Program-made: the position numbers and the translations under genes
The notes under the pieces: model-generated
Seen by the model: the letters and a program-made list of their open reading frames with translations, nothing else
What the model was told of the DNA's origin: nothing
Databases searched by the model: none
Shown here: positions 10,431-52,473 of the stretch, in pieces
Position numbering within the stretch: position 1 is the stretch's first letter
How the letters are laid out: each line of letters starts with the position of its first letter
Origin: Pseudomonadota bacterium
GTDB taxonomy: Bacteria; Pseudomonadota; Alphaproteobacteria; Geminicoccales; Geminicoccaceae
Length of the DNA stretch: 64,000 nt
Direction: 5' to 3'
Assembly: GCA_030549795.1 (NCBI GenBank)
Contig: JAUQQO010000010.1
Span: forward strand, 186,001 to 250,000

Positions 10431-10505
10431 TGGCGTCCCCAACGGGACTCGAACCCGTGTTTCCACCTTGAAAGGGTGGTGTCCTAACCTCTAGACGATG
10501 GGGAC
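10431..10505 (-). tRNA. tRNA-Glu (anticodon TTC)
   Basis: On the minus strand the sequence folds as a cloverleaf: acceptor GTCCCCA pairs with TGGGGAC, the D arm contains CTAGAGGTTAG, the anticodon stem CCACC/GGTGG encloses CTTTCAA (anticodon TTC), and the T arm is CGGGTTCGAGTCCCG. A genomic CCA end is encoded at 10433-10431. It sits between the MBL gene and recJ. Confidence 0.95.
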
Positions 10506-37978: not shown

Positions 37979-39193
37979 TCAAGCGCAGCGCGCGAGCTCC
38001 GGCAACGCGGCTTCGAGAACGGCGGCTAGCCTGTCCGCCGCCGCGCCGGCCTCAGCGAGCGTTTCGGCGTGGCTTAAGCTGTGCGGTGAAAGGCCGGCGG
38101 CGAGGTTGGTGACCACCGCGATCCCGAGCACCTTCAAGCCGCACTGCCGCGCCGCAATCGCCTCCGGGACCAAAGACATGCCGACGAGATCGGCACCGAG
38201 CGCGCGCAACATGCGGATCTCGGCCGGAGTCTCAAAGCACGGGCCGAGCACGGCAGCGAGCACGCCTTCTTCGAGCTCAAGGCCGAGCCTTTCTGCGGCG
38301 CGCCGGGTGACGGCACGCAAGGTCTCATCATAGAGACCGTCGAGGGCCAAAAAGCGCGGGCCCACGTGCGCATCCTGCGGCCCCACAAGCGGGTTGCTGC
38401 CTTGCAGGTTGAGGTGATCGCTTACGAGCACGAGCCGTCCAGGTCCGATGCGCGCGCGCAAGGAGCCGGTTGCGCTCGTGAGGATCACGGCGCGACAGCC
38501 CAATTCGCGGGCGAGCCGAAGCGGGGCAGCGAGCGCGCGGGCGGGATGTCCCTCGTAGAGATGCGCTCGTCCCAAAAAGCAGAGGACGGGAACGCCCGCC
38601 CAGCGGCCGTAGGTGATGCGACCGGGGTGGCCCTCAACAGCGGGAACGGGCAGGTCGGACAGCTCGCGCACCGCAAGCGAGAGGATCGGCGTGATCCGCT
38701 CGGCCAGCTTGGACAGGCCGGAGCCGAAGACCACAGCGAAAACGGGCGGTTCGGCCGAAACAGCCTCGCGCAGCTGCGCAAGCGCGTGCGAGGCTTCGCT
38801 TCGGGGCTCGCCGCGCAGGCGAAAGGGCAGGGGCAGAAGTGCGCCGAGCGTCGTTTCCACAAGCACGCGCCCCCTCGGATCGGCGATGCGGATGGGAACC
38901 TCGCTCGTTGCGAACTCGGCCAACCGCTGCCGACAACCTCCGCAGGGCAGACAGGGCGGCGGCCCTTCCCCGACCACCAGGATCTCGACGATGCGCCGCT
39001 CACCAGCCGCCACGAGGGTGCCGAGTGCCGAGGCTTCGGCACATTGGCTCAACGGGTAGGCGGCGTTCTCGACGTTGCAGCCGGAGAAGATACGTCCGCT
39101 TGCCGCACGCAGAGCGGCACCTACAGCAAAGCCCGAATAAGGTGCCCAGGCATGGGCGCGGGCGCAAGCGGCAGCAGCGAACAGCGCATTCAT
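37979..39193 (-). CDS. Fused cytidine deaminase - purine nucleoside phosphorylase
   Basis: A 404-residue two-domain enzyme in one frame. Residues 1-~127 resemble a tetrameric cytidine deaminase: zinc ligands C51 in CAEASAL with E53 as proton shuttle, and C84 and C87 in PCGGCRQ. Residues ~135-404 resemble a trimeric purine nucleoside phosphorylase: VFGSGL, GHPG, GRAHLYEGH, MSLVPEA and VTNLAAG, where N363 matches the human Asn243 that favours 6-oxopurines. Both active sites appear intact. It would process pyrimidine and purine nucleosides in salvage. ATG 39193 gives a start typical of Cdd. I do not recall this fusion in common genomes. Confidence 0.85.
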   Translation of the reverse strand: MNALFAAAACARAHAWAPYSGFAVGAALRAASGRIFSGCNVENAAYPLSQCAEASALGTLVAAGERRIVEILVVGEGPPPCLPCGGCRQRLAEFATSEVPIRIADPRGRVLVETTLGALLPLPFRLRGEPRSEASHALAQLREAVSAEPPVFAVVFGSGLSKLAERITPILSLAVRELSDLPVPAVEGHPGRITYGRWAGVPVLCFLGRAHLYEGHPARALAAPLRLARELGCRAVILTSATGSLRARIGPGRLVLVSDHLNLQGSNPLVGPQDAHVGPRFLALDGLYDETLRAVTRRAAERLGLELEEGVLAAVLGPCFETPAEIRMLRALGADLVGMSLVPEAIAARQCGLKVLGIAVVTNLAAGLSPHSLSHAETLAEAGAAADRLAAVLEAALPELARCA

Positions 39194-39317
39194 CGTCTTT
39201 GCGGTCTTCCCTGTTTGCGCACGGTGCGCAGGCAGCTCCGTTTCTCTCCTATGCCGCGCCGCCTTGCCAGGCGAGCGGAGCGCTTGCGGAAGCCCAGGAA
39301 CGCTTAAAAACAACGCA

Positions 39318-40853
39318 TCAGAGCGCGAAATCGCTCTCAGCGGCGAAGACCGCTTGGCTGCGCCAGCTCGGGCCCGCGGGACGGGCGCTTATCTGCGGCA
39401 GCCGCACCGGCTCTGCGAGAATACAGGCGGCCACGGCATCGAGCCCGTCGTCGCGGCCGCGACCGTTGGGTCGCCAGCTGCGCATCTCGTCGAGGAAGGG
39501 GCTTGCGAGGACGCTTCGGTGCACGTGCAGCCGTCGCGCCGCGAGCAGAGGGTCGAAGGCTTCGAGGATGCGCCGTGCCTTGGGCATGGTCGAGGCTTTC
39601 TCGATCACCGCCGCTCCCACCCCCATGCGGCGCAATTCCTGTCGCAACAGTGCCGGGAGAAAAGCGCCGAGGCCGTTGGTCTCGACGATCAATGAAGGCA
39701 AATGGTTGCGGGCGAGAAAGCGCGCCACGGCGCGACAGAGCGAGGTCGCTTCGTCCACACCCTCCTTGGGCTGGACGCTCAGATATTCGATCGCGTGCAG
39801 CCAATAGTGGCCTTCGGCGTCGATGAAGACGGCCGCGACTACGCTTGCATCGCCGCGATCGGGACGACCGTAGGCCGGATCCCAGGCAGCCGCGGCGGAG
39901 ACCATGCGGCGCCCCCCGATCTCCAAGAACTCCCGGCCGTGCACGGAAACGAGCTCGATGTGTTCTTCGTAAGGGAGTAGGAGATCCGGATCCAAGCGCA
40001 CGTCTTCAAGACGCGTGGGCAAGAGCTGCATTTGACTGCGGAATTTGGCGGGACCCGCGCGCTCGAGGAGCGTGTCCACGATCTCCGCTGAGAAGCGGTC
40101 GGGCCAGCGGCGCTCTCCCGAACGCGAGAGGAGTGCGACCGTGAGCCGCGCGTAACCGGCAAGGAACGGCTCCGATTCGCCAAGGTCACGCCGCGGTGTT
40201 TCGGCGTAGATCGAATGGTCGCTGTGCGGCGTGCCAAGGTACATCACGAGGCCACCCGGTGCCAGGACGAAGTCGAGCTCGCGCAGCCGCTCACGCAAGA
40301 GTTCCCGTTTCTCCGGCGTGTCGGCGGTGTTCGGCACCTCGACGTCGTCGCAGATGATCACATCCGCTCGCGAACCGGTGAGATTGGCACCGATCCCACG
40401 AGCCAAAAGCGAAGGATCGCGGCCGACACGCCGACGGCGAACGGTGAGTTGATCCGCGGCCCAGCATTCGGGTCGGCTCTCCAACAGCCCGCGCGTGAGC
40501 CGGTGGCGCTCGAGGATGCCGCGCACGTTGCGCGTCATCTTGGTCGCAAGCGCCTGGTCAGCGGCCACAACGAGGATGCGCAGATCGGGATCCCCGTAGA
40601 GGAGCCAGGCGCAATAGAGCGCAGCGAGCGTCGACTTGCCCGCGCTGCGGAAGAGCAAGAGAAGCAGCCGGCGCTCACCGTTGCGCCACTGTTCGTCGAG
40701 CCATTGGCAGACCTGCAAATGGAGCAACGGCGTGCTCAAGCCCTGATCGCGGTTCCAAAGCCACACGAAGCGGTTGAACGAGAGCGGGCGACGGGCCGGC
40801 GGCGCAGCGCTGGGCGGTGTGCGCCCGCGCTTTGGGGGCGAAAGCAGGACCAT
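39318..40853 (-). CDS. Phage terminase large subunit (T7-like)
   Basis: A 511-residue DNA-packaging motor. The ATPase part has a P-loop-like FRSAGKST (~68-75) and the VIICDDVEVPN Walker B region. The nuclease part has WDPAYG, SLIVETNGLGAFLP and GRGRDDGLDAVAA acidic motifs. It is the last gene of the minus-strand virion cassette, which corresponds to the position of gene 19 in T7. No small terminase subunit was recognised. Confidence 0.85.
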   Translation of the reverse strand: MVLLSPPKRGRTPPSAAPPARRPLSFNRFVWLWNRDQGLSTPLLHLQVCQWLDEQWRNGERRLLLLLFRSAGKSTLAALYCAWLLYGDPDLRILVVAADQALATKMTRNVRGILERHRLTRGLLESRPECWAADQLTVRRRRVGRDPSLLARGIGANLTGSRADVIICDDVEVPNTADTPEKRELLRERLRELDFVLAPGGLVMYLGTPHSDHSIYAETPRRDLGESEPFLAGYARLTVALLSRSGERRWPDRFSAEIVDTLLERAGPAKFRSQMQLLPTRLEDVRLDPDLLLPYEEHIELVSVHGREFLEIGGRRMVSAAAAWDPAYGRPDRGDASVVAAVFIDAEGHYWLHAIEYLSVQPKEGVDEATSLCRAVARFLARNHLPSLIVETNGLGAFLPALLRQELRRMGVGAAVIEKASTMPKARRILEAFDPLLAARRLHVHRSVLASPFLDEMRSWRPNGRGRDDGLDAVAACILAEPVRLPQISARPAGPSWRSQAVFAAESDFAL

Positions 40854-40856
40854 GGA

Positions 40857-41297
40857 TCACTCGAGCAAGCTGCGTCGTTCGGCGCGCCCGCTGTCCATGA
40901 GCCGAGGCGCGAGCTCGAGCAGGCGCAGCGGCGTATCCTCAAGCAAGCTGCGCGGCCTGCGGGCGGCATGACGCGCGCGCACGAGCTCGATGCGCGCCCG
41001 CGTTTCCCGGTCCTGGGCTTCGCGCAGCGCGCGGCTCTCCTCCTCGAGGCCGCGCAGGACGGCATCGAAGGAGCCGCCCGTGGTCGCGATCCCAAGCGCC
41101 CCTGCGCGGGCGCGCTCTTGCGCGAGCCGGCGCGCCAGCGCCGCTTGCTCGCGGCGGCGCTCTTCGGCTTCCGCGAGCTTGATGCGGCGGATTTCGGCGC
41201 GGCGCTGCGCCTTTAAAAGATCCTTTTGGTCCTCGCGCGCTTTGTGCGCGAGCGCAAGTTCAAGGCCGAGCGTGGCAAGGCTGGTAAGCGCACCCAT
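40857..41297 (-). CDS. Putative internal virion protein
   Basis: A 146-residue, very Arg/Glu/Ala-rich, wholly helical protein with likely coiled coils (KDLLKAQRRAEIRRIKLAEAEER) and a central ALGIATTGGSFDAVL segment. Proteins like this follow tail tubular B in T7-like phages, where internal core proteins are encoded; here only this one short protein is seen. The start ATG at 41297 overlaps the previous gene's stop by 1 nt and terminase follows after 3 nt. Confidence 0.6.
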   Translation of the reverse strand: MGALTSLATLGLELALAHKAREDQKDLLKAQRRAEIRRIKLAEAEERRREQAALARRLAQERARAGALGIATTGGSFDAVLRGLEEESRALREAQDRETRARIELVRARHAARRPRSLLEDTPLRLLELAPRLMDSGRAERRSLLE

Positions 41298-43246
41298 CAG
41301 TCGTTCACCTTGAGCTCTGTTTGCACGGCAAGGAGCGTAAAGGGCGTAGGCGCATCGTCTTCGATGCGCCAAAGGAATCGGCTTTGGCCGCGGCGCCAGC
41401 CGCACGCCCGCAACGCAGCGTCGCCCGAGAACGGCGAGGCGCCGGGTTCGGCAAGCGGAAGCGAACGAAAGCCGTCGCCCGTGTCCACCCGCAGTCGGTA
41501 GGTGTCGGCGACCCGAAACGTGAGGCGGATCGGCCGATGTGCCGCATCGAGCGCGACGCCGCGGCTCGCTGCCGCCGTGGGGGTGGGCTCGATTTCGTGC
41601 GCATACGGAATCCCGATGAGAAGGCGCGAGGCCGGACGCGGCAGAACAACGGTTGAGGAGGCGAGCGTACCGCGAAAGACCGGCTCGCCATCGGCAAGGA
41701 TTAAGACCTCGTGGCCGAGGTGGTCATCGAGGCCAGACCATGTCGTGGTCGGAGTGGAAGCTGTGTAAACGCGCGCGTGGTCGACCCAGATCCCGTCCTC
41801 GAGGACCTCGACGAGCGTTCGGTTCGCCCATTCGAGAATGAGATAGAGCCGACCGCGCAGCACCGTGACCGCACGCGCGGCACCCGCAAACTCCTGCAGC
41901 GACCAGGCGGCGATGTTGGCGTTGCGGTCGATCGCCACCGTGGCGCTGCGACCATCGGCGCGCACGATCCACAACAGGCGCCGCCGCCCGTCGAAGGCGG
42001 CATCGGTGGGATCATCCAAGAGGTGACGGGAGAGGGTGGCGATGTCGGCGGCCTGATAGGCCTGCTCCACTTCCGTATAGAGGAACTCGCGCAGCTCGCG
42101 ACCGCTTGCGCCGATGAACAAAGTGGCGCCGTCGACATCAACCGGCGGCACGCGCGGGCTCGCCTGCGATCCGATGCGGGTCTGGCGCTCGAGCTGAGTT
42201 CCACTGGGGGTGATCGGGAAACCCTTGACGATCCACTCGCCGGCGGTGGTCAGGATCTGGAGATTGCGGCCGGGAACGAGCGCGGTGATCACGTGCCGCG
42301 TTTCATCGGCGAGGCGGAAGGCGATCGCCTCGTCGTCGAGGCCGCTGCCGGGGTCGAAGTTCATCGGTCGGCTGGTGCGCGACATCCACACCCAGTCGGG
42401 AAGATCGCGCGAGCCGCCGAGCACGAGGCGGTCTTGGTGGAAGGAGACGGTGCGCGGCCAGCCGCGGGCCGGGCTGAACGCTTCCTCCTCCCAGCGCAAC
42501 GTCCACGCGCTGTCGGGGAAGGTGTCGTAAGCCTTGGCCAGCACGCGATCCGGGGCCTGATAGGCGAGGATGCGCACGTACCGACCGTTGATCCGCAGCC
42601 AGACGCCATAGTGCTGGGGCGTGAACACCGGTGCGGCCGACGCACCGTCCACATGGCGCGCTTCGACGATCACGAAGTCGCCGAAGGAGGCGCCGGGCGG
42701 CGGATTGGTGCCGTCGCGGCGAACGCGCACGGCGGTGTCGGGTGGCGCGACCTTGGCGAAGGGTGCGAGCGGGCGCTTGATGCCGGGTTCCGGTTCGGTG
42801 GCTTCGAACTCGAAGGGCCGCAGCTCCCAGCTGCCGCCGCCCATCCCGTCGCGGCGGATGATCTCCATGCCCCGCACCTCGGGGTGGACGACGAAGAGGC
42901 GGTCGCGATAGCGGGCCCAGTCGATCTCGCGGAGCTGGGCGGCGGACCAGGGCGCCTCGAGATCGGCGATCGGGCTTCCGTCCCGCAGCACGACCAGGCG
43001 GTAGGGTGCGAGGACGAGCAGGAAGGCGTCGTCTTTGTCGTCAAAGGGGAGCAAGCGCAGGGCAGCCGGCACCTCGGCGAGGATTCGCGTGCCCGGTCGA
43101 CGCGTTACGCCGCCGCCCGGGTGCACGAAGACGTTGCGCAGCCGACGCGCGCCATCTTCTTGCGCCCGCAGATCGATGCGACCGAACATCAAGGGATCGA
43201 GCTCGCCCATGGCGAAGCTCGTCTTGATGAGGAGCTGGCGACTCAT
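41297..43246 (-). CDS. Tail tubular protein B / tail nozzle-like protein (T7 gp12-like)
   Basis: A 649-residue beta-rich protein with many short strands and few helices. It starts with LIKTSFAMGELDPLMFGRIDLRAQEDGARRLRNVFVHPGGGVTRRPGTR, a pattern I associate with phage stabilisation/tail tubular B proteins that form the tail nozzle. In the cassette it comes right after tail tubular A and overlaps its stop by 4 nt. Confidence 0.75.
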   Translation of the reverse strand: MSRQLLIKTSFAMGELDPLMFGRIDLRAQEDGARRLRNVFVHPGGGVTRRPGTRILAEVPAALRLLPFDDKDDAFLLVLAPYRLVVLRDGSPIADLEAPWSAAQLREIDWARYRDRLFVVHPEVRGMEIIRRDGMGGGSWELRPFEFEATEPEPGIKRPLAPFAKVAPPDTAVRVRRDGTNPPPGASFGDFVIVEARHVDGASAAPVFTPQHYGVWLRINGRYVRILAYQAPDRVLAKAYDTFPDSAWTLRWEEEAFSPARGWPRTVSFHQDRLVLGGSRDLPDWVWMSRTSRPMNFDPGSGLDDEAIAFRLADETRHVITALVPGRNLQILTTAGEWIVKGFPITPSGTQLERQTRIGSQASPRVPPVDVDGATLFIGASGRELREFLYTEVEQAYQAADIATLSRHLLDDPTDAAFDGRRRLLWIVRADGRSATVAIDRNANIAAWSLQEFAGAARAVTVLRGRLYLILEWANRTLVEVLEDGIWVDHARVYTASTPTTTWSGLDDHLGHEVLILADGEPVFRGTLASSTVVLPRPASRLLIGIPYAHEIEPTPTAAASRGVALDAAHRPIRLTFRVADTYRLRVDTGDGFRSLPLAEPGASPFSGDAALRACGWRRGQSRFLWRIEDDAPTPFTLLAVQTELKVND

Positions 43247-43815
43247 CCGAGCCTCGCGTCGATGAGCGTGAAGTCTTCGATGGCCCGCGGGGTCGCTTGC
43301 TGACTGTCGATGAGCTTGGCGAGCTTGAGCTCGCTCGCCGCCAAGCGCTGCAGGACTTCAGCACGAGCGGCGTTCTCGGTGAGCGGCAAACAGAGCTCAG
43401 CGGCGAGCCGGGCTGTGAGCGCAGCGATGAAGTGGGGTGGGAACTCCGCCGGAGCCGGCCGGCGCTGGTAGGTCAAGAGCACCGCTTCGGCATCGGCGTG
43501 CAGGCGATTTCCGAACACGCGGTAGACGAGACCACGGCCGCTCTTCCCGCAGCCGGCGGAGACGGTGCGCAAAAGATCCGCAGGCAAGCGGAAGGAGGCG
43601 GCGAAATCGCCGGCCGGCGGAACGGGATCGCGCTCGAGTTCGGCTTGGGCCAGAGAGAAGGCCCACGGATGCGCGAGCAAGGTCGAATCGCGCACAATCG
43701 GATAGAGCCGTGCTGCGAGCTCGGCTTCGAGGGTCGCTTCGGCGAGCGACGTGATCGGCCGTGCACCGAGCTTGACGAGCGCAGTCGAGCAGAGCTCGGC
43801 CTCGGTGAGCGACAT
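43243..43815 (-). CDS. Tail tubular protein A-like adaptor (T7 gp11-like)
   Basis: A 190-residue protein. It begins SLTEAELCSTALVKLGARPITSLAEATLEAELAARLYPIVRDSTLLAHPWAFS, the common pattern of the podophage head-tail adaptor that forms the ring between portal and nozzle. ATG 43815 is preferred because AGGAG lies 6 nt upstream; an ATG two codons earlier is also in frame. Confidence 0.8.
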   Translation of the reverse strand: MSLTEAELCSTALVKLGARPITSLAEATLEAELAARLYPIVRDSTLLAHPWAFSLAQAELERDPVPPAGDFAASFRLPADLLRTVSAGCGKSGRGLVYRVFGNRLHADAEAVLLTYQRRPAPAEFPPHFIAALTARLAAELCLPLTENAARAEVLQRLAASELKLAKLIDSQQATPRAIEDFTLIDARLG

Positions 43816-43838
43816 GGGCATCTCCTGGAGCAAGAGGA

Positions 43839-44195
43839 TCAGATCGCTGGGCCCACGGCCAGCCGCAGGGCGTGGAGGAGGCTCGCGAGGTCGGTCTCGA
43901 AGCTGCCTACAAGGCATCCCTCGCGGCTCAAGGCGACGACGAGCGTGCGGTCCGGGCGCAAGAACAGGGTGGCGCGATCGGGCCGAGCCAACAGCGCCTC
44001 AAGCGGGTGCACCGGCCAGAGCGCGACGACCGCCGGAAGGAGCGCTCCCTCGAGCTCGTAGCGAGGCTGCCCGCGGAGCTGCTCGAACGAGGCCTCGAGC
44101 GGGAGCGGACAATTGGCCTCGGCACCGGATGGTGCCGGGGGGATGACGACCAACCACGCCGCGAGCTTGGCGGCGCGCCAACGGGAAGTGGTCAT
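43839..44195 (-). CDS. Hypothetical protein of the virion cassette
   Basis: A 118-residue protein with a hydrophobic N-terminal segment (AAKLAAWLVVIPPAP) and an Ala/Leu-rich C-terminal half. I do not recognise the family. It lies between the decoration-like and tail tubular A genes; the stem-loop at 44226 precedes it. Start: ATG 44195 with GGAG 8 nt upstream. Confidence 0.5.
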   Translation of the reverse strand: MTTSRWRAAKLAAWLVVIPPAPSGAEANCPLPLEASFEQLRGQPRYELEGALLPAVVALWPVHPLEALLARPDRATLFLRPDRTLVVALSREGCLVGSFETDLASLLHALRLAVGPAI

Positions 44196-44225
44196 GGCGG
44201 GGACTCCGCGGCTGCGGGCGGGGAA

Positions 44226-44254
44226 GACGGCCGAGGCGCGCGGCCTCGGCCGTC
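44226..44254 (-). terminator. Strong stem-loop after the capsid genes
   Basis: Perfect 12-bp arms GACGGCCGAGGC and GCCTCGGCCGTC with a 5-nt loop in the 76-nt gap after the capsid and decoration genes. On the minus strand it is followed by TTCCCC, not a full T-run. It could reduce read-through into tail genes or stabilise the capsid mRNA. Confidence 0.45.
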
Positions 44255-44271
44255 CCTGCCCGGGACGAGGC

Positions 44272-44541
44272 TCAGCTCGCGTTGGTGGCCCCAAGCGGGG
44301 TCACATCGGAGAGATCGACGGTGGTGCCGGTGTTGCCGAGCACGACCAGCAAGCCGTAGCTCGGCACCAATCCGATGCCGGCATGAGCGATGACGAGGTC
44401 GCCCACCCGCAACATCGCCGAGGCCGGATTGAAGTAACCGGCGGTAGCGAGCTCCGAGATCGGATCGGAGGTGCGATAGTGCCAGAGCGTAAAGCCGTTG
44501 GCGTAGGCGAGAGCGCTCAAGTTGCGGGGATCACAAGCCAT
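44272..44541 (-). CDS. Putative capsid decoration protein
   Basis: An 89-residue protein. The LSALAYANGFTLWHYRTSD start and the MLRVGDLVIAHAG segment followed by short strands suggest a beta-rich head-surface protein. It begins 1 nt after the major capsid gene, the usual place for such proteins in phages. The family is recognised only by context and appearance, not by a solid motif. Confidence 0.55.
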   Translation of the reverse strand: MACDPRNLSALAYANGFTLWHYRTSDPISELATAGYFNPASAMLRVGDLVIAHAGIGLVPSYGLLVVLGNTGTTVDLSDVTPLGATNAS

Positions 44542-44542
44542 C

Positions 44543-45361
44543 TCACATCTCCCGGCAGGGGATCTTGACGACGCCCTCGTCGTCGATGAGGACGGCGCCC
44601 TGCGACATCCAGTTGGCGACGAAATGCGCGGCGCGGTCGCCGTGCCAGGTGATGTCGGTCACCACGTCTTGGCCGATGGCGTGACCGACGGCGCTTCTGT
44701 GGTACCAGAAGCAGGTGCGCACGCCGTTCACGAGCGGCAGGCCGGAGTGGGCGATCCACAGCGTGCCGAGCCACATCTTGGCCTGGGCACCGCGCCAGGG
44801 GAGGACGTCGTCGCCCACGAACTCGGCGCTTGCGAACTCGGGAAGCGCGAGCAGCTCCGACCACTGCTTCCAGCCGACCACCGCGAAGCGCTGGCCGTCG
44901 TCGGGGACGTCCCTCTCGCCCAGATGCTCGAAGGCGGCGAGCACCTTTTGCTTGGTGAGGCCTTCGTTCGGCGAGCCGATGGAGGTGCTGGCCTGGGCGA
45001 GCGCGTTGATGATCAGCTCGTCGGTCTTGCGCCCGAGCGCATAGGCACCGGCTGCCGCCAACACCTGGCGCTCGTCGATGTTGGTCTTGAGCTCGTCCAG
45101 CCGGTCGACCCATTCACCAGCGTAGTAATCGACGAGCACGGCTTCGACATAGCTGTGCTCGACGTTCATCACCGGGACCATGCCGTGGCGGGCCTTGGTC
45201 GCGGCCGTGCCTTTGCCGACCTTCTGGAACACGGTCGAGCTGCCGCGCACGTTGTTCTTGGTGCGCACGGTGGGCCGCAATTTCGATCCCTGCCGCTGAT
45301 AAGCGGCGTGGACCTCGCGCTCGAACTGTTTGACGAACGCTTGGTCAATGCTCGTCGACAT
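44543..45361 (-). CDS. Major capsid protein
   Basis: A 272-residue protein directly after the scaffold gene. It has a hydrophilic N-terminal helix (DQAFVKQFEREVHAAYQRQGSKLR), then TVRTKNNVRGSSTVFQKVGKG and VEAVLVDYYAGEWVDRLDELKTNIDERQ, which resemble the HK97-fold phage capsids of some alphaproteobacterial podophages. Length is short for T7 capsid (~345 aa), but the gene order (portal-Bbp19-scaffold-capsid) supports the assignment. Confidence 0.75.
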   Translation of the reverse strand: MSTSIDQAFVKQFEREVHAAYQRQGSKLRPTVRTKNNVRGSSTVFQKVGKGTAATKARHGMVPVMNVEHSYVEAVLVDYYAGEWVDRLDELKTNIDERQVLAAAGAYALGRKTDELIINALAQASTSIGSPNEGLTKQKVLAAFEHLGERDVPDDGQRFAVVGWKQWSELLALPEFASAEFVGDDVLPWRGAQAKMWLGTLWIAHSGLPLVNGVRTCFWYHRSAVGHAIGQDVVTDITWHGDRAAHFVANWMSQGAVLIDDEGVVKIPCREM

Positions 45362-45482
45362 CGTTGACCTCGTGATGGTTGACTGCGCTTAGGCGTTGGC
45401 CGCAGGTTGTCCTTGCGGGCCGTGCGGGCCACGCCGGTTCCGCCGGGTCGGGCCGTTGCGGTTGTCCGCCCGGGAGCGCGCG

Positions 45483-46256
45483 TCACTCGCCGTAAAGGGC
45501 TTTGAAGCCTTCGGTGACGCGCGCGATGAACTCGGGGTCGCGATCGCGCCAATAACGGGGATCGCGGATCATCTGATCGAGGACTTTGGCATCCAGACGC
45601 GCCTCTTGCGCCTCGGAGCTACCGGAGAGCTTGGGCTCGTCCGCCCTCATCATGCGGTAAAGGGCGAGCACGCCGTGATAGCTCGAGGCGAGTGCTGTGA
45701 ACACTTCGGGCTCGAGATGGGCTTCGCCCCATATCTTGAGTTCGCGGGCGATCTCGCGCCATCGCTCGGCTCCGCCGAAATGCGCCACGAGCCGCGCGTG
45801 CGCCTGCGCGAACTCGGCTTCGCTTGCGAGTTCGCGCACGAGCGGAGCGAGCCGCTCGAGGGCGAGATCGTAGACGAGCTGCACCTGCTCTTGGGTGAAG
45901 CCGGCCTCGTGCAGCCTTCGGTTGATCTCGGGATCGGGCTCGAGCAGACCCTCGACCGCGCGGATCTGATACTCCTCGGGTCGCTCGGGGCGACCGAGCG
46001 CGGCGAGCAGACGCTCGCGCGCCTCGCGATCCTCGGGTCCTTGCGGAAGCGGAAGCGAGCGGCCGAGCTTGCGCTCGAGCTCGAGATAGGAGCGCAAGAG
46101 CGCGTCGACCCGAATAGTCCCGGCTTCGGGATCCCAGAATTTCTCTGGCACGCCTGCAGGCGGGGTAGCCGCGCGCTCCTCGCGGTCGGCAGCATCAGGC
46201 GGGACGTCGTGGTCGACCGGCTCGGATGGGGAAGAGACAGGGGTCTCGTGCTGCAA
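45483..46256 (-). CDS. Capsid assembly scaffolding protein
   Basis: A 257-residue acidic helical protein with a disordered Pro/Asp/Glu-rich N-terminus and the VPEKFWDPEAGTIRVDALLRSYLELERKLG segment that is typical of podophage scaffold proteins. It assists assembly of the procapsid and leaves before DNA packaging. It lies between the Bbp19-like and capsid genes. A 121-nt gap to capsid contains no recognised element. Confidence 0.78.
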   Translation of the reverse strand: MQHETPVSSPSEPVDHDVPPDAADREERAATPPAGVPEKFWDPEAGTIRVDALLRSYLELERKLGRSLPLPQGPEDREARERLLAALGRPERPEEYQIRAVEGLLEPDPEINRRLHEAGFTQEQVQLVYDLALERLAPLVRELASEAEFAQAHARLVAHFGGAERWREIARELKIWGEAHLEPEVFTALASSYHGVLALYRMMRADEPKLSGSSEAQEARLDAKVLDQMIRDPRYWRDRDPEFIARVTEGFKALYGE

Positions 46257-46262
46257 GGTCTT

Positions 46263-46553
46263 TCATCCTCGGTTCGCGGGCGGGACAGAGGGCATGCCCT
46301 GGCCGCGTTGGATCAAGAGCAGGATGTGGGCGACGACCGAACGCTGGCCTTCGACGTGACGGAGCTCGGCGTCGCTTGCCGTGGGCGGAACCCGACGGTC
46401 GAGGAAGCAGCGCCTGAGATGCGCGAGCACGATTTCCCCATCGGGACCGCGAAAGCAGCGCGCGAAGGCACGCGCGAGGCGGTCGTCCGAATCCTCGAAA
46501 GGCTTCACTTCCTCGCCCTCGAGCCACGGCTCGAACAAACGGTGCGCGCTCAC
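46263..46553 (-). CDS. Bbp19-like phage protein
   Basis: A 96-residue protein. The RLARAFARCFRGPDGEIVLAHLRRCF start, the PTASDAELRHVEGQRSVVAHILLLIQRG end and its short length match the Bbp19 family seen next to portal genes in podophages. Its role is unknown. GTG 46553 overlaps the portal stop by 4 nt (GTGA) and has GGAGG ~6 nt upstream in the portal gene's end, so I set the start there and not further upstream. Confidence 0.75.
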   Translation of the reverse strand: MSAHRLFEPWLEGEEVKPFEDSDDRLARAFARCFRGPDGEIVLAHLRRCFLDRRVPPTASDAELRHVEGQRSVVAHILLLIQRGQGMPSVPPANRG

Positions 46554-48064
46554 AACCGGCCTCCGTCGTTGGCTTCGGACGCTGTTGGCGGAGCCGGATC
46601 GACAGCATCGGCGCGCACGAGCTCGCCTGCCACGCCCAGCGCGCGGGCGAGCCAGAGCGCAGCAGCGCGGCCATCGACCACGCTCTGTGCCGAAGGGCCG
46701 AGCCGGCTCACCGTCTCGAGCCAAAGAAGCGTGTTTTGGACGTCCGCGCGGGCTTGGGCGCGGGCGAGTGGAGCACGGTAGTCGACTTCGACCAGGCGAC
46801 CGTCGAGCGGCAGCTCGGGGATCTCGCCGCGCCGGTGCAGGATGGAAAGCCCGCGACGCAAGAGCGGGACCAGGAGTTCGGCCTGCAAGCGACCAAAGGT
46901 GGCGCCCAAAAGCCGCGCGGTCTCCACCGCACGCTCGAGCACTTCGGTTGCGGTCATGGGCGGACCGAGGCGAGGTCCCAGTCGATCGACGAGGAGCGTG
47001 TGGCGGATGCGGGCGCGCAGATCCTCGAGCACGAGCTGGGAGACGTCGAAGCGCCCGGGCGCTTGCAGCGGCGTAAGACCGGCGGAACCCGGCGCTTTGG
47101 GGATGATGGCCCCCGGTTGGAGGCGGATGTTGGCCGGGTTGAGCACCCCGTCGTCGTCGGCGAGCCAGATGCCGGTGACCGCGATGGAAGCGTTTTTGAG
47201 GATGAGCTCGACGACCTTGTTGGCGGTGCGGATGTCGGGAAGCGCCGCCATCACCGGAGAGCGGCCATAGAGCTCGCCAGCGCCTTTGCTCCAGCGGAAG
47301 GTGAGCAAGGGCGAGGTCTCAAAGCGTCCCTCGGCGAGTACGAGACCGTGCGGTGCCCCTGAAGAGCCAGGCGGCAGATAGCGCAGATAGCGCAAGCCCG
47401 AGGGTTCGGCCGGCTCGAGCGCATCGATCACCTCGACCAGTTGATCGGGACGCGTGCGCGCCTCTTCGCGCACCGCTTCGGGCAGAAGATCGGCATTCGT
47501 GCGCTCGATCAGACTACCCAGCGTGCGCAGGGTGATGCGGTAGCGGCGCGTGATCTCGCCGTGCTCGCCGTCGACGTAGACCTCGGATGGGGGAATGGCG
47601 GCGAAACGGAAGGCCGAGAGATGACCGACCGGTGCTTCCTCGAACAAGAGATGCGCGGTGCCGCAGGTGACGAGGTCTAAAAAGCACTGGTGGATCTCGA
47701 CCGCGAAATTGGAACGGTCGAAATGGCCCTGCAGGCGGCGGGCGACGGTTTCCAGCATCTCGGCGACCGCGCCGCGTTCGGGTTCGGGGACGTCCGAGCC
47801 GGGGTGGAGGCCGAACCACTCGGACCAGGGCGGGACCAGTTCCGCCATGAGGCTCGCGGCCAATTGTTCGACCGCATCGACGGCGGTGCCGTCGAACAAT
47901 CGTTCCGCGTAGCGCGCGCCGGAAGCGAATTCGGCGCCGAGCCCAAAGCCCCGTTGCGGGTGGGCGTAGGCGTAACATTCGCGCCAGAGAGCTTCCCAAG
48001 GCGCGCGGCGGCTGCGGGCGCGGCGCACGCGCTCATCGAGCAGCGCGAGGTTTTCGCAAGGCAT
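46550..48064 (-). CDS. Portal (head-tail connector) protein
   Basis: A 504-residue protein of the T7-type head-to-tail connector family. Landmarks are WRECYAYAHPQRG, RLFDGTAVDAVEQLAASLMAELVPPWSEWFGL, YGRSPVMAALPDIRTANKVVELILKNASIA and VDRLGPRLGPPMTATEVLER. It forms the 12-mer ring through which DNA enters the capsid. It is the second gene of the minus-strand operon and shows the T7-like order portal-scaffold-capsid. Confidence 0.88.
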   Translation of the reverse strand: MPCENLALLDERVRRARSRRAPWEALWRECYAYAHPQRGFGLGAEFASGARYAERLFDGTAVDAVEQLAASLMAELVPPWSEWFGLHPGSDVPEPERGAVAEMLETVARRLQGHFDRSNFAVEIHQCFLDLVTCGTAHLLFEEAPVGHLSAFRFAAIPPSEVYVDGEHGEITRRYRITLRTLGSLIERTNADLLPEAVREEARTRPDQLVEVIDALEPAEPSGLRYLRYLPPGSSGAPHGLVLAEGRFETSPLLTFRWSKGAGELYGRSPVMAALPDIRTANKVVELILKNASIAVTGIWLADDDGVLNPANIRLQPGAIIPKAPGSAGLTPLQAPGRFDVSQLVLEDLRARIRHTLLVDRLGPRLGPPMTATEVLERAVETARLLGATFGRLQAELLVPLLRRGLSILHRRGEIPELPLDGRLVEVDYRAPLARAQARADVQNTLLWLETVSRLGPSAQSVVDGRAAALWLARALGVAGELVRADAVDPAPPTASEANDGGRL

Positions 48065-48097
48065 GATCGATCCTCGAAGGCTGCGCGTACTAGGCTT

Positions 48098-48544
48098 TTA
48101 ATCCGTCATAGGATTATTGTCAACAGGCCAACCGGCGCCCTGCTCGTGCGCGGTGAAGCCGTGCTTTAAGAGCGCGCGGTAGAGCTGATAGGGTGTCCAC
48201 ACCAGGGGCGCGCGCAGGCCCAACAGGCGCTTGACCAAGGAGACGCAGGTCAAGGGAGCCAGGAGCGCGACACCGCCGGGATCGGCGATGCAGGAGCCGG
48301 CGAGTGCGAGCATGCCGAGCGACCGGTAGTGGCGCAGAAGGTGCTGTTCGTCGTAGCTGGCGATGGCCTCGAGGCGGATCCCGGCCTTAAGGGGGTCGCA
48401 GACGATCCAGCCGCACGGTCGCTTGAGCAGACAGAAGCAGTGGCGAAATCCGGGGCGGAGAAAGGTGAGCAAGGGCGAGCCGGGGCGGTTTTCGAACACC
48501 ACGACGGCCCGCGTGGCGGGTTCTTTGGGGGGCGGGGCGGGCAT
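48098..48544 (-). CDS. Conserved hypothetical protein, first gene of the virion operon
   Basis: A 148-residue protein with a LLTFLRPGFRHCFCLLKRPCGWIVCDPLKAG central part and VSLVKRLLGLRAPLVWTPYQLYRALLKHG near the end. Several Cys and aromatics and a CLLKR..WIVCDP motif are present; a peptidase-like fold is conceivable but not demonstrated. It begins 41 nt from the repressor operator, so it is the first gene under that promoter. Confidence 0.6.
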   Translation of the reverse strand: MPAPPPKEPATRAVVVFENRPGSPLLTFLRPGFRHCFCLLKRPCGWIVCDPLKAGIRLEAIASYDEQHLLRHYRSLGMLALAGSCIADPGGVALLAPLTCVSLVKRLLGLRAPLVWTPYQLYRALLKHGFTAHEQGAGWPVDNNPMTD

Positions 48545-48577
48545 GGGTTGCGGCGGGGAGGGCGTGTTCGGACTTTT

Positions 48578-48606
48578 TGCCTACTGACAGGATTGACGTC
48601 TGTCAA
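48578..48606 (-). promoter_or_regulatory. Leftward promoter of the virion operon
   Basis: On the minus strand TTGACA (48606-48601) lies 17 nt from TAGGCA (48583-48578), a consensus -35 and a fair -10. It overlaps the palindrome at 48585-48605, so a bound repressor would shut it. It would transcribe the 148-residue gene and the whole virion operon. Confidence 0.5.
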
Positions 48607-48612
48607 GAGAAT
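48584..48612 (+). promoter_or_regulatory. Rightward promoter of the S24-fold repressor gene
   Basis: CTGACA (48584-48589) and GAGAAT (48607-48612) are 17 nt apart and lie ~48 nt before the repressor ATG. It also overlaps the palindrome, so the repressor may control its own synthesis. Confidence 0.4.
48585..48605. promoter_or_regulatory. Candidate operator palindrome
   Basis: TGACAG-N9-CTGTCA is a perfect 6+6 inverted repeat between the divergent repressor and virion operon. The arms coincide with the two back-to-back -35 hexamers, a classical arrangement for a repressor-controlled switch. Binding by the adjacent regulator is inferred. Confidence 0.5.
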
Positions 48613-48659
48613 AGGCACGCAAGCGGGTCCGGCCCGCGAAGGGGCGGAGAGGCATCCTA

Positions 48660-49298
48660 ATGCTGACACACAAGCAGGTCTGGGACGGCATCGACCGATT
48701 GGCAGCGCGCCACAAGCTCTCGGCCTCCGGCCTCGCCAAGAAGGCCGGGCTCGATCCCACCACCTTCAACAAGAGCAAGCGCATCACCAAACAGGGCAAG
48801 CCGCGCTGGCCCAGCACCGAGAGCATCTCGAAGGTGCTGGAGGCGACCGGGACCTCGATGCAGGAATTCGTCGAGCTCATGATGGGGGCCACGCCCGGAA
48901 GCCCAGTGGGTCGCGGCTTCCGCTTGCGCTGCACGAGCTTGAGCGAAGTGGAAAAAGGAAGCTGTTTGGATGCCGCCGGGTTCCCGCAACCGGGAGGCTG
49001 GGAAGAGATCGAATATCCGGCGATCGAGGACGAGCATGCCTACGCGGTCGAACTCGACCGCGACGTCGCCCCTCCCTTTTACCGAACCGGCGACATCCTC
49101 GTGATCTCGCCCGGCAGCAGCATCCGCCGCGGCGATCGCGCGATGGCGCGCCTGCGCGACGGCCAGGTCAGCTTCGGCCTCGTGCAGCGGCGCACGGCAC
49201 AACGCGTGGTCTTAAGCGATCTCGTCTCGGGCGCCGAGCAGGCGATCGAGGCGGACCGCCTCGCCTGGCTCGCGCGCATCCTGTGGGTGAGCCAATAG
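48660..49298 (+). CDS. S24/LexA-like helix-turn-helix repressor lacking the catalytic Ser and Lys
   Basis: A 212-residue regulator. The N-terminal helix-turn-helix domain (VWDGIDRLAARHKLSASGLAKKAGLD, TTFNKSKR) is of the type common in alphaproteobacterial S24 family regulators. The C-terminal domain keeps the fold pattern (ELDRDVAPPFYRTGDILVISPGSSIRRGDRAMARLRDG). In self-cleaving relatives a Ser lies at the GDSMEP position, but here the aligned stretch is RDVAPP; the Lys is in an AKEL-type stretch, but here SFGLV. So self-cleavage should not work. It is divergent from the virion operon and likely represses it. Confidence 0.75.
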   Translation: MLTHKQVWDGIDRLAARHKLSASGLAKKAGLDPTTFNKSKRITKQGKPRWPSTESISKVLEATGTSMQEFVELMMGATPGSPVGRGFRLRCTSLSEVEKGSCLDAAGFPQPGGWEEIEYPAIEDEHAYAVELDRDVAPPFYRTGDILVISPGSSIRRGDRAMARLRDGQVSFGLVQRRTAQRVVLSDLVSGAEQAIEADRLAWLARILWVSQ

Positions 49299-49359
49299 GC
49301 ACAGGGTCGGGGCCCTATGGGGCGGCGAGCGGGGCTTTAGGCGTTTTATCCCCGTTGCG

Positions 49360-49388
49360 TTGACAGAATTGGCTTATGGTCCTAGGAT
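49360..49388 (+). promoter_or_regulatory. Promoter before the tailspike operon
   Basis: TTGACA (49360-49365) and TAGGAT (49383-49388) are separated by exactly 17 nt, the best sigma70-type match I saw in the window. It lies 31 nt before the 49419 start. It contains TGACAG, a half-site of the palindrome at 48585-48605, but no second arm. Confidence 0.6.
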
Positions 49389-49418
49389 CCGCTCGTGAAC
49401 CTCGAGCGGAGAGACGCC

Positions 49419-49745
49419 ATGAGCCTGCTCCTGCCTCTCGACGACAACGGTAACCCGATCGCCGTCCTCGGCTTCGACTACCGCGGCACCCAGAAGCTCA
49501 CGGTAGGTTCGCAGTCGGTTCGCAACCCGACGCCCATCCCGAGCGACATCGAGATCGTCACCCTCTACGCCACCGGCCCCTGCCGGTTCGAACTCGGCGA
49601 CGCCACCGTCACCGCCGACCCCGACACCAGCCCCTTCCTCGCCCCCAACCAATACGTGGACGTGCCGCTTAAAGCCGGCGAGCGCTATGTTGCCTTCGTC
49701 GCCGAAGGCGAGCCCTGCACCGCGTATATCATCGGGCGCATTTAA
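49419..49745 (+). CDS. Hypothetical phage structural-type protein
   Basis: A 108-residue beta-rich protein (LLLPLDDNGNPIAVLGFDYRGTQKL, then DIEIVTLYATGPCRFELGD and VDVPLKAGERYVAFVAEGEPCTAYIIG). The small-strand pattern ending in a jelly-roll-like repeat suggests a structural head or tail protein. ATG 49419 follows GGAGAG. First gene of the rightward tailspike unit. Family not identified. Confidence 0.6.
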   Translation: MSLLLPLDDNGNPIAVLGFDYRGTQKLTVGSQSVRNPTPIPSDIEIVTLYATGPCRFELGDATVTADPDTSPFLAPNQYVDVPLKAGERYVAFVAEGEPCTAYIIGRI

Positions 49746-49747
49746 CC

Positions 49748-49918
49748 ATGCCGCTTGCTCTTGCTTCGACCACGGCCGGGCTTTCCTTGACCGCCCGCCG
49801 CCGACCCGAGGTGAGACGCGCCCCTCCCTCCGCTTCGCCCCCGCTTCTCGCCACCGAACTCGGCGAACCGATCGTCACCGAGCTCGGCGAGCGGCTCGCC
49901 GTGGAGCCTTCCCCATGA
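49748..49918 (+). CDS. Small (56 aa) protein upstream of the tailspike
   Basis: A 56-residue frame starting ATG 49748 just after the previous stop. It ends with ELGEPIVTELGERLAVEP, a short repeat-like hydrophilic stretch seen in small proteins ahead of phage tail fibre genes. Its stop overlaps the tailspike ATG (ATGA). No function can be given; coupling to the tailspike is the main support for reality. Confidence 0.5.
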   Translation: MPLALASTTAGLSLTARRRPEVRRAPPSASPPLLATELGEPIVTELGERLAVEPSP

Positions 49919-52278
49919 TCACCCGCCAGATCCACGAGCTGCCGGTTGCCGGCGAGGTGCAGCCGGGCGACCAACTCGTTCTCTCGACCGCGACGTCCCG
50001 ACTCACCCGCCGAGCGAGCATCGAGGCCCTACCTTTCGCGCTGCCCGGCTCGGCGACCCGCCGCCTTATCCGCGATAAGCTCGCCGATGTCGTCTCGGTG
50101 CGCGACTTCGGCGCCAAGGGCGATGGGATCAGCGACGACGCCCCCGCCTTCCAAGCGGCGCTCGAAGCCGCTTTGGCGGTCTATGTGCCGCCCGGCCGCT
50201 ATCGGCTTGCGAGCGTCGTCCACGTTCCGCCGCGACGCCACATCCACGGCGCCGGCCGCGATGCCACCGTGATCCACGCGTTGGCCGAGCGCGCCTTTGT
50301 CTTCCACCGCAACGAGGGCGCCTTCCGCGTCGACCCCGAGGCCACGACCGACTGGAACCGCTCGGCGATCGCCGACCTCACCGTGCGCATGAGCCAGGGC
50401 GGCATCTTCGTCCACGGGCACGAGTTCTCGGCCGAGCGGCTCAAGTTCACCGGAGGCGCTGCCGGCTTCTGGTGCCTCGAGCTCGAGGACTCCAACGAAT
50501 GCTGCCTTAAGGAGATCTCCGCCGGCCCCGGAGGTGGCGAGCATGATCTCTTAGCCAACGGCATCCGGCTCTACGGCTCGCAGACCGGGGCCGGCGTCAA
50601 TTACGGCGACAGCTTGCTCGAAGAGATCGCCATCAAGCTCAAGACCCCGGGGGCGATCGGCATCCTGGTCGAGCACACGGGCTCGCCCGTGTCCGGCCGC
50701 TATTACGTGATGAACAACATTCTCTTCAATCGCATTCAGGTCAACAGCGCCGGCATCCCAAGTGGCACTGTCGGCATATGGCTCAAGCGCACGATGCGCT
50801 GTGTATTCTTGAACTGCGATATCGAGCTCATCGATACGGCGTTCCGGGTTGAGGGCGTAGCTGGCGGCGGCAGCGCCGGCAGTGTACGCCACCTGAGCTT
50901 CATCAATTGTTACGTGCTCAACTGCAACACACCGTGGGTCGACAGCAACGCGACCCTGCCCGGCTCCGTGATGCGCTGCTTTTTCGCCAACTGCAACGGC
51001 TTTGGGCAGCTCAATCCGGTCGGTGTGGCGAGCAACGATCCTTATGCGCGCGCTGGCGAAGGCGATCTCTTTTTGCCCTCGGCCTTGTGGCTCGATGAGC
51101 CGCACACCGGTCAAGCGGCCATCCAGCTGCGCGCCCCCGACATCGGACAGCTCCTTCTCACCGGCGACTTCCACGACGGTGCGAGCCCGGTGCGCGACGG
51201 CAACATCAAAAATGCGAGCCCGCGCCAGGCGCTCGGCTTCGACCTCACCTCGTTCAACGTCGCCCGCATCTTTCGCCCGCGCGGTTATGCCGACGGTCAG
51301 GAGAGCCGCATCGCCATCGGCAACGGCGAAGGCCATCCGGCCGGTCCGCTGCACCGGGTCGAGATCGCCGATCCGCTCTATCTGCCGCCGCGCACGAGCG
51401 AGCCGCCACAGCCGCGCAACGGTTCCGTGATCTATTGCGAGAGTGCTGCGGCGCTGCCGAGCGGAACGCCCTGGGCCGGGCCTGGCTGGTACGCTCGCCT
51501 CGCCAACGGCTGGAACCCGGGCGTGAGCCTCATCGGGCGCGTCCCCGAACGCGAGCGGAACACCAACTTCACCGTCTCGCCTGCCGATTTCGGGCGCGTC
51601 CACCGGGTGAACAACGCCGGCCCGATCGTCGTCACGGTGGCTTCGACCTATACCGTGGGGAGCACGAGCTTACCGCTTTTGCAGGCCGGCGACCCGGCTG
51701 CCACCTTCTGGTTGATCCGCCAGGGCACGGGCAGCGTTACGGTGCAGGCGGGTGACGCCAATGTCGAGATCCGCAATCCCGCGGGCGGCTCGACGCTCGT
51801 GATCCGCCGCCAGCACCAGCTCGTGCAGATCCTGCTCCGCTACAACCCGACGAGCGGCAAGATCGAAGTCTATGGCACCACATTTCCCGATGCCGAGCTG
51901 CCGTATGAGGTATCGGTGGGATGGACCAATGCCAGCCAGGGCACCAACGGTCCGACCAACCCGTACATCGTGCCCGCCAGCCGTGCCGGCCAGCTCTTGC
52001 GGATCAGCTCTTCCGATCCGGTGAGCTACGTCGCCTTCGAAGCGGCGAGCGTGCCTTCGGGTCTTTCCGCCGCCAGCTTCCGTTTGGTGACGGTCAACAA
52101 CCCTATCCGCATCATGGCACGCCCCGACGGCAATCCGCTTCTGACCTTACGGCGCAGCAACGTCACGAGTCCCGCCGGCCATCCCTGTTTCGAGGTGAGC
52201 GAAGTCGGGCGCGTGGTGCTCGTGCATGTGGTCACGAGCGATCCGAACCAACCCAACTCGATTTACATTGAAGGTTAA
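49915..52278 (+). CDS. Tailspike with pectate-lyase-type beta-helix
   Basis: A 787-residue protein. After a short head-binding-like N-terminus (ITRQIHELPVAGEVQPGDQLVLS) comes VVSVRDFGAKGDGISDDAPAFQAAL, the classical start of a pectate-lyase/glycosidase right-handed beta-helix. The body has many short strands with Asn and Gly turns. A C-terminal beta-rich region from about residue 540 follows. Such spikes bind and cut surface polysaccharide of the host, so this would set particle specificity. ATG 49915 is set by the overlap with the small upstream gene; a longer frame upstream overlaps known genes. Confidence 0.8.
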   Translation: MITRQIHELPVAGEVQPGDQLVLSTATSRLTRRASIEALPFALPGSATRRLIRDKLADVVSVRDFGAKGDGISDDAPAFQAALEAALAVYVPPGRYRLASVVHVPPRRHIHGAGRDATVIHALAERAFVFHRNEGAFRVDPEATTDWNRSAIADLTVRMSQGGIFVHGHEFSAERLKFTGGAAGFWCLELEDSNECCLKEISAGPGGGEHDLLANGIRLYGSQTGAGVNYGDSLLEEIAIKLKTPGAIGILVEHTGSPVSGRYYVMNNILFNRIQVNSAGIPSGTVGIWLKRTMRCVFLNCDIELIDTAFRVEGVAGGGSAGSVRHLSFINCYVLNCNTPWVDSNATLPGSVMRCFFANCNGFGQLNPVGVASNDPYARAGEGDLFLPSALWLDEPHTGQAAIQLRAPDIGQLLLTGDFHDGASPVRDGNIKNASPRQALGFDLTSFNVARIFRPRGYADGQESRIAIGNGEGHPAGPLHRVEIADPLYLPPRTSEPPQPRNGSVIYCESAAALPSGTPWAGPGWYARLANGWNPGVSLIGRVPERERNTNFTVSPADFGRVHRVNNAGPIVVTVASTYTVGSTSLPLLQAGDPAATFWLIRQGTGSVTVQAGDANVEIRNPAGGSTLVIRRQHQLVQILLRYNPTSGKIEVYGTTFPDAELPYEVSVGWTNASQGTNGPTNPYIVPASRAGQLLRISSSDPVSYVAFEAASVPSGLSAASFRLVTVNNPIRIMARPDGNPLLTLRRSNVTSPAGHPCFEVSEVGRVVLVHVVTSDPNQPNSIYIEG

Positions 52279-52284
52279 CCTGCG

Positions 52285-52473
52285 ATGGAGCCGAAATCCC
52301 TTAAGGCTATCTGGACTATCCTGCGCGATAGCATGCTCTTGGCAGTGCTGCGCGCGTCACTCGCCCTCATCCAGCTCTCGGCCGACCTTCTGGGCCTCGA
52401 CCGCAACGCCCGCGAGGCGGTGGTGGCGCGGTTGCACGCCATGCTTTTGCCCAATACCGTGCACTCTTCCTGA
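52285..52473 (+). CDS. Small (62 aa) protein following the tailspike
   Basis: A 62-residue frame with an amphipathic helix (AIWTILRDSMLLAVLRASLALIQLSADLLGL) and AREAVVARLHAMLLP end. It begins 6 nt after the tailspike stop. It could be a holin-like or chaperone-like small phage protein, but no second lysis gene follows, so I leave it unassigned. Confidence 0.5.
   Translation: MEPKSLKAIWTILRDSMLLAVLRASLALIQLSADLLGLDRNAREAVVARLHAMLLPNTVHSS

Follow-up and report, generated by a model that had tools for sequence, protein, structure and literature searches.

A 64,000-nucleotide stretch from a bacterium of the Geminicoccaceae (Alphaproteobacteria; assembly GCA_030549795.1), here called the window (G000:C46:186001-250000, part of a 3.16-Mb assembly), carries a compact block of phage-like virion genes, made up of 11 minus-strand genes, a divergent S24-family repressor gene and a plus-strand tailspike unit. 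Comparative sequence analysis leads us to consider that this block is probably a domesticated, vertically inherited virion cluster of the podovirus type, most likely a gene transfer agent (GTA) under a repressor of the RogA type. That a domesticated podovirus-type particle is encoded beside a RogA-type repressor is well supported by gene content, inheritance within the family, selection, linkage of the repressor and enrichment of operator-like sites.

We scanned 15 open reading frames (ORFs) of the block with Pfam and 14 of them also with PHROGs; a 56-amino-acid (aa) ORF at 49748-49918 was left out. The profile matches bear out the T7-like gene content and order proposed in the initial annotation, which had counted ten minus-strand genes; the minus-strand cassette in T7 order stands, but it comprises 11 genes. 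In order of coordinate, these encode the large subunit of a T7-type terminase (terL, 39318-40853; phrog_38, E-value (E) 4.7e-75), a 146-aa internal virion protein-like product (ivp, 40857-41297), tail tubular protein B-like (ttpB, 41297-43246; phrog_376, E 3.1e-102) and A-like (ttpA, 43243-43821; phrog_394, E 8.6e-38) products, a 118-aa protein (43839-44195), an 89-aa virion-module protein (44272-44541; phrog_18004, E 1.1e-17), the major capsid protein (44543-45361; PF19821, E 1.3e-80), which has a solved relative (9eg4, E 4.4e-30), a scaffold of the T7 capsid assembly type (45483-46256; PF05396, E 3.6e-14), a Bbp19-like protein between scaffold and portal (46263-46553; PF25181, E 2.6e-19), the portal or head-tail connector (46550-48064; PF12236, E 3.2e-123) and a 148-aa protein (48098-48544), the product of the operon's first gene. 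The name of ivp comes from its position only, which is conserved in the clusters of the family, and its product had no Pfam or PHROG match. Divergent from the operon lies a gene that had been overlooked, encoding a regulator with helix-turn-helix (HTH) and Peptidase_S24 domains (48660-49298, plus strand). The tailspike, correctly placed on the opposite strand before, is pectate-lyase-like (49915-52278, plus strand; PF12708, E 7e-14; tail spike PHROGs).

The scan of the 15 ORFs gave no match to an integrase, polymerase, primase, holin or endolysin, in agreement with the earlier statement that integration, replication and lysis genes are missing. Like a GTA, the block in the window holds virion genes derived from a tailed phage without integration or replication genes; the integrase and attachment sites that would mark a temperate podovirus were not found in it. 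Direct repeats had been said to be absent, and among the 20 listed of 31 direct-repeat families we likewise saw none of the att type, with one copy per flank. The tRNA genes of the window lie at 10431 and 60881 only, neither adjoining the block, whose G+C content (0.66-0.69) is like that of its surroundings; the whole genome has one such portal. The metabolic flanks described before, cdd-pnp and metY, were confirmed. The cdd-pnp flank is one ORF (37979-39313) with cytidine deaminase and purine nucleoside phosphorylase domains.

We compared the block across the family, represented by 24 genomes, our own included, and by 21 loci (the window and L101-L120). A portal was found in 21 of these genomes, being absent from G009, G014 and G015, and 25 of 40 relatives gave a portal match when weak matches were counted. 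The comparison of synteny suggested with the initial annotation showed the cluster beside metY in all six genomes of the genus. Other genera have the same gene order (terL-ivp-ttpB-ttpA-89 aa-capsid-scaffold-Bbp19-portal-148 aa, with a divergent repressor), and their neighbouring genes vary by genus; a tailspike unit in this position was found in our genus only. All 11 core genes were recognized at 15 of the 21 loci, and among the other six, L109, L110 and L113 run off their contigs, L108 lacks three genes, and L115 and L118 are each one gene short in the gene calls. Ten chosen flank proteins were scanned, of which seven were ordinary host proteins, one had no family, one was a serine recombinase (G018) and one a transposase of the insertion sequence type (L107). 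We also observed that G009, although it has no portal, retains a repressor homologue (L277, L278), with no cluster gene recognized nearby.

Usable rpoB loci were available for 15 of the 21 family loci, 14 of which entered the trees. A tree of five concatenated virion genes had 8 of 11 splits in common with the rpoB tree (14 genomes), the three unshared splits having rpoB support of 0.47, 0.70 or none. Mantel comparisons with rpoB distances gave r 0.53-0.82 with p 0.001 for all eight genes. The ratio of nonsynonymous to synonymous substitution rates (dN/dS), another check proposed at the outset, lay between 0.06 and 0.20 for the main genes when the nearest genus member was compared: capsid 0.075, 89-aa gene 0.076, ttpA 0.09, portal 0.10, terL 0.11, ivp 0.13, ttpB 0.16 and scaffold 0.20, with 0.06 for the repressor, 0.11 for the 108-aa gene of the tailspike unit and 0.14 for the spike. 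The 118-, 96-, 148- and 62-aa genes were looser (0.28-0.36, the 62-aa gene at 0.36), and the 118-aa gene ranged over 0.35-0.62 across comparisons. Values rose against L102 and L104, to 0.17-0.18 for the portal, at most 0.28 for the scaffold and at most 0.62 for the small genes; those of host neighbours ran from 0.03 (metY) to 0.47 (a phytase-like gene). The synonymous rate dS was lowest in the block for the capsid gene (0.37), as would fit a highly expressed gene. These comparisons indicate that the block has been inherited vertically under purifying selection, as expected of a GTA, within one family.

The window repressor, a protein of 212 aa, gave weak HTH_26 and Peptidase_S24 matches, both just under the Pfam cut-offs, and V and G replace the Ser and Lys of its S24 cleavage dyad. 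RogA, according to PMC9632790, is a 213-aa LexA-like protein without key cleavage residues and binds a promoter with two GGAA-N4-TTCC repeats; 819 of 1,331 alphaproteobacterial genomes have a homologue. The features of the RogA family given there, namely an HTH plus an S24-like domain, a length of about 213 aa and loss of key catalytic residues, are found in the window repressor. Both dyad residues are lost in the readable repressors of the family (that of L109 is cut), and 11 of 14 repressors away from the cluster keep both. A search of 50,697 phage records at E 1e-5 gave no match to the window repressor, which supports its being a host gene; no solved structural relative was found.

Upstream of the repressor genes, we found the motif AGG-N8-CCT at 24 of 71 distinct cluster-linked genes, whereas 50 shuffles gave 3.0 on average and never more than 7. 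The set retained 82 of the 104 repressor ORFs, of which 71 are linked to a cluster and 11 are not. Among spacings of 4-12, only 8 exceeds the shuffles (spacing 4: 7 versus 3.3). With a stricter start rule (34 of 86 kept), spacing 8 occurred in 16 of 34 versus 1.5, and spacings 3 and 14 were above the shuffles too (6 and 5); the upstream sequences are related to each other, so that the counts are not independent. Three of the 11 repressors without a cluster also have AGG-N8-CCT, one as GGAACAAATTCC. In the window, the putative promoter of the virion operon (48570-48606, minus strand) has TTGACA (48606-48601), a spacer of 17 bp and TAGG (48583-48580), and an operator-like TAGG-N8-CC (48583-48570) starts at this -10 TAGG. 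In the aligned upstream regions of the family (11 of 21), TTGAC does not vary. A putative promoter/operator region of the tailspike unit (49338-49388, plus strand) has TTGACA (49360-49365), 17 bp and TAGGAT (49383-49388), with GG-N8-CC, seen by eye and without a shuffle control, at 49338-49353 and 49369-49384, flanking TTGACA. In Skermanella (L146), TAGGAATTTAAACCTA with TTGAC precedes the capsid half. Elsewhere in our genome, a one-mismatch operator match at C46:470952 sits at a response-regulator gene.

In our genome the pattern TAGG-N8-CTTGACA, derived from sister genera, is matched exactly only once, about as often as expected by chance, and among loose matches a reversed control pattern exceeds it (257/234 versus 95/106). 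The exact match ends 30 bases ahead of a gene of 227 aa, which we call X (G000:C44:57550-58230; L260:4051-4734), located between genes that by eye resemble nadE and dus. Six of six genus genomes have X, with a loose TAGG-N8-YY site no more than 50 bases from its start (two arrangements, no shuffle control); in G001, X is interrupted by an in-frame TAG. Weak relatives have ATAGGTTCATTTTCCTAT upstream in G006 and G020 and TAGGTACATAGTCC in G008, and a search of 40 relatives recovered X in 9. It matched no Pfam or PHROG family, and the best match of its profile to solved structures (E 0.012) was not convincing. X may be the missing small terminase, as read by eye, or an activator.

The 148-aa product of the operon's first gene is a candidate cell-wall enzyme. 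Its His35 and Cys100 are invariant in an alignment of 45 sequences, and its AlphaFold2 model (predicted local distance difference test score 88.3) resembles TseH (6v98; Z 7.7, root-mean-square deviation (rmsd) 4.6, 123 residues) and the cysteine peptidase 3kw0 (Z 5.7, rmsd 4.2, 109 residues; next row 4.5), although Z scores of such size can be unspecific. Foldseek with this model returned nothing below 1e-3. The model suggests that the protein is likely a permuted NlpC/P60-like cell-wall enzyme. The fast-evolving 118-aa protein has a signal-peptide-like N-terminus (by eye), and its BLAST matches, searched in the window and L101-L120, were confined to the genus and G007. Besides the spike, the tailspike unit encodes a 108-aa protein (49419-49745, plus strand), a possible virion decoration with a 25% identical relative between the scaffold and capsid genes in L132, and a 62-aa protein (52285-52473, plus strand), helical by eye and present in the genus. 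The 148-, 118-, 108- and 62-aa genes matched no Pfam or PHROG family. The 56-aa ORF at 49748-49918, between the 108-aa gene and the spike, is matched in three genus genomes with a dN/dS of 0.20-0.42.

To place the cluster in the class, we used one sample of 385 genomes, together with PF09343 (DUF2460), which we take to mark gp12 of RcGTA. Close portals, defined by E < 1e-150, a cut chosen after viewing the list, occur in 46 genomes from 28 families, and portals including weaker matches in 100. The repressor profile matches 114 genomes, including 45 of the 46 with a close portal. In 41 of these 45, repressor and portal are no more than 6 kb apart; in one they are 10.6 kb apart, and in three they are on different contigs (44 of the 45 repressors were placed; the 45th, G303, is on another contig). 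PF09343 is present in 55 genomes, none of them among the 46 with a close portal (Fisher p 0.0011, phylogeny ignored) and four among all 100 with a portal match; two families (f29 and f98) hold both kinds of cluster, in different genomes. In 47 genomes the repressor occurs with neither marker, or in 29 if weaker portals are counted. The family does not fall in the RcGTA-like class: PF09343 was absent from all 24 of its genomes, the positive control Caulobacter vibrioides being matched, and a variant of RcGTA was ranked lower as an explanation of the block on this ground. The published survey PMC6821227 records no RcGTA-like clusters for Acetobacterales (62 genomes), Azospirillales (13) or Rhodospirillales (24). 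We further observed cluster parts retained in three genomes of only 1.2-1.5 Mb (G113, G223 and G044; L215, L216 and L217), and portal matches split in two next to the repressor in G074 (about 17 kb apart) and in G207 and G377 (short gaps).

In some other families the cluster occupies what we take to be an ancestral lysK locus, with the arrangement lysK-repressor-cluster-DUF952. Among 12 genomes with the RcGTA marker whose loci we read (L201-L212), lysK is near the repressor in nine and pyrD on the other side in nine. The podovirus-type cluster stands between the repressor, with lysK, and DUF952 at L151, L167 and L180, and in G051 (L220), on one contig, between the repressor and DUF952-pyrD with lysK close by; lysK was seen at 16 of 75 named loci with a recognized portal. 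Clusters with a fuller gene set have in addition a 121-aa gene, a fibre judged T7-type by eye and, past terL, a 100-aa gene; some have a weak, below-cut-off match to a cell-wall hydrolase, and they end with a holin of three transmembrane segments, GTA_holin_3TM (3e-11 and 1.2e-11 for the two tested), present at 8 of 75 loci. In the gene calls, the clusters of Azospirillum and Magnetospirillum are interrupted or split. In G007, GTA_holin_3TM lies beside a GH108 endolysin between host genes (L262:4661-5808), possibly a moved lysis unit. A tentative wider scenario, to which we give slightly less than an even chance, is that Alphaproteobacteria have two unrelated GTA types, siphovirus (RcGTA) and podovirus, both tied to the RogA family and not found together, and that the podovirus type, having arrived next to the repressor at the lysK-pyrD locus, came to serve as the GTA of Rhodospirillales-like orders, where the published RcGTA search found none.

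Several observations weigh against reading the block as a vertically inherited GTA. The cluster has moved, because the cdd-pnp flank is common only to the window and L101 (the contig of L103 begins there) and flanks differ between genera. At L108 (G008), the capsid, 89-aa and Bbp19-like genes were not found; the portal matches of G010 and G016 contain a TGA; G018 has broken reading frames of terL and ttpA, with a serine recombinase gene (L115:2012-3661; PF00239, PF07508) next to terL. With the genus reduced to the window, the Mantel values were r 0.31-0.66 and p 0.001-0.078. The GTA holin PF11351 was found in none of the six genus genomes and, within the family, only in G007. Regulation differs between lineages, because 42 of 74 distinct cluster-linked repressors keep the S24 dyad (S plus K). 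The window repressor resembles Caulobacter RogA in architecture, lost cleavage residues and operator spacing, a likeness of described features, and its tie to RcGTA in the class sample is loose, with a repressor in only 22 of the 55 PF09343 genomes, not significantly above the others (p 0.08). The mutual exclusion of portal and RcGTA may partly be just the deep split of orders in PMC6821227, although f29 and f98 each include both kinds. Finally, gene transfer by the particle is the most likely last step for a cluster that is known here from its genes alone.

These points bear on three other explanations. A domesticated particle might serve some purpose besides gene transfer, such as killing relatives or delivering an enzyme-bearing spike, instead of moving DNA. 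This would account for the retention of the pectate-lyase-like tailspike in the genus and for an operon whose first gene may encode a cell-wall peptidase; we think it unlikely, as portal, scaffold and terminase, which a DNA-free particle would presumably not need, are under purifying selection and the linked regulator is of the GTA type. The flanks that differ between genera and the recombinase gene in G018 might instead speak for a mobile mini-phage or satellite, still moving and borrowing its replication from a helper, as might the portal relatives encoded by 588 of 600 matched IMG/VR stretches. Against it, the window block has no integrase and no att repeat was seen, the trees follow rpoB, and the IMG/VR loci read show the same cluster (a recognized portal in 63 of 80 loci kept, 27 of the 63 with a repressor). 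Its nearest annotated phage, Pelagibacter phage Hodr EXVC031P, is only 50.4% (capsid) and 35.0% (portal) identical; the nearest relative in the phage collection, at 59% for the capsid and 53% for the portal, is a faecal contig of 5 kb that carries no annotation. We regard such an element as improbable.

The initial annotation had left a choice between a trimmed prophage and a domesticated particle. A decaying prophage remnant would explain why replication, integration and lysis genes are missing and why some relatives (G018, G074) are damaged, but it is contradicted by the rpoB-like trees and by purifying selection on the main genes, with unbroken matches in the genus, and a close portal in 28 families also speaks against it; we consider it very improbable. 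The domesticated particle is favoured by the position beside metY in six of six genomes, the trees, the selection and the single portal, as well as by the linked GTA-type regulator and, in other families, the GTA-type holin.

If the block is a GTA, the RogA-type repressor, LexA-like and in the family without self-cleavage residues, would bind GG-N8-CC operators that overlie the promoters for the virion operon and the tailspike unit, and probably that of the unlinked gene X, keeping all of them off. In some cells repression would be lifted and a short-tailed capsid assembled, which the T7-type terminase would fill with DNA, host DNA in the case of a GTA; particles might then leave by lysis, through enzymes encoded elsewhere or the 148-aa protein, and carry genes to other cells. 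None of the open-licence papers searched described a podovirus-type GTA in Alphaproteobacteria, and the cluster may be a second, so far unrecognized type of gene-transfer machine. Some 'proviruses' in public viral catalogues would then be cellular DNA-transfer machines, RogA homologues outside RcGTA carriers would gain a role, and repeated phage domestication beside one regulator could be tested in culturable genera, among the named relatives Azospirillum, Skermanella and Geminicoccus.

Among known systems, the Pelagibacter podoviruses (Hodr EXVC031P, HTVC010P) are the closest annotated phage relatives of the cluster, but they are complete phages of about 34 kb with many extra genes. The particles of Azospirillum lipoferum, which reportedly are siphovirus-like, are not claimed here for the podovirus-type cluster. 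Induced by mitomycin, they carry random 10-kb host DNA according to PMC3899980 (citing Boyer et al. 2008), whose authors attribute them to an RcGTA-like region. FpGTA of Faecalibacterium, for which packaging of host DNA has been shown by experiment, comprises a 10.5-kb virion operon of short-tailed-phage type plus an unlinked second operon (PMC12946183); the likeness to our cluster, known from genes alone, is one of description, and FpGTA differs in its host, which is not an alphaproteobacterium; the main text of its paper nowhere uses the word 'repressor'. RcGTA and CcGTA (Rhodogtaviriformidae) are likewise virion genes kept by cells without replication or integration genes, with a RogA-type repressor in some PF09343 genomes and a GTA-type holin that recurs in the fuller podovirus-type clusters; they are of siphovirus type, whereas the cluster here has a T7-type portal, scaffold, tail and terminase. 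As for the regulator, RogA of Caulobacter crescentus (CCNA_00080) shares with the window repressor its size (213 aa), HTH plus S24-like domain and missing cleavage residues, but it represses the activators gafYZ, whereas the repressor gene in the window adjoins the virion operon itself.

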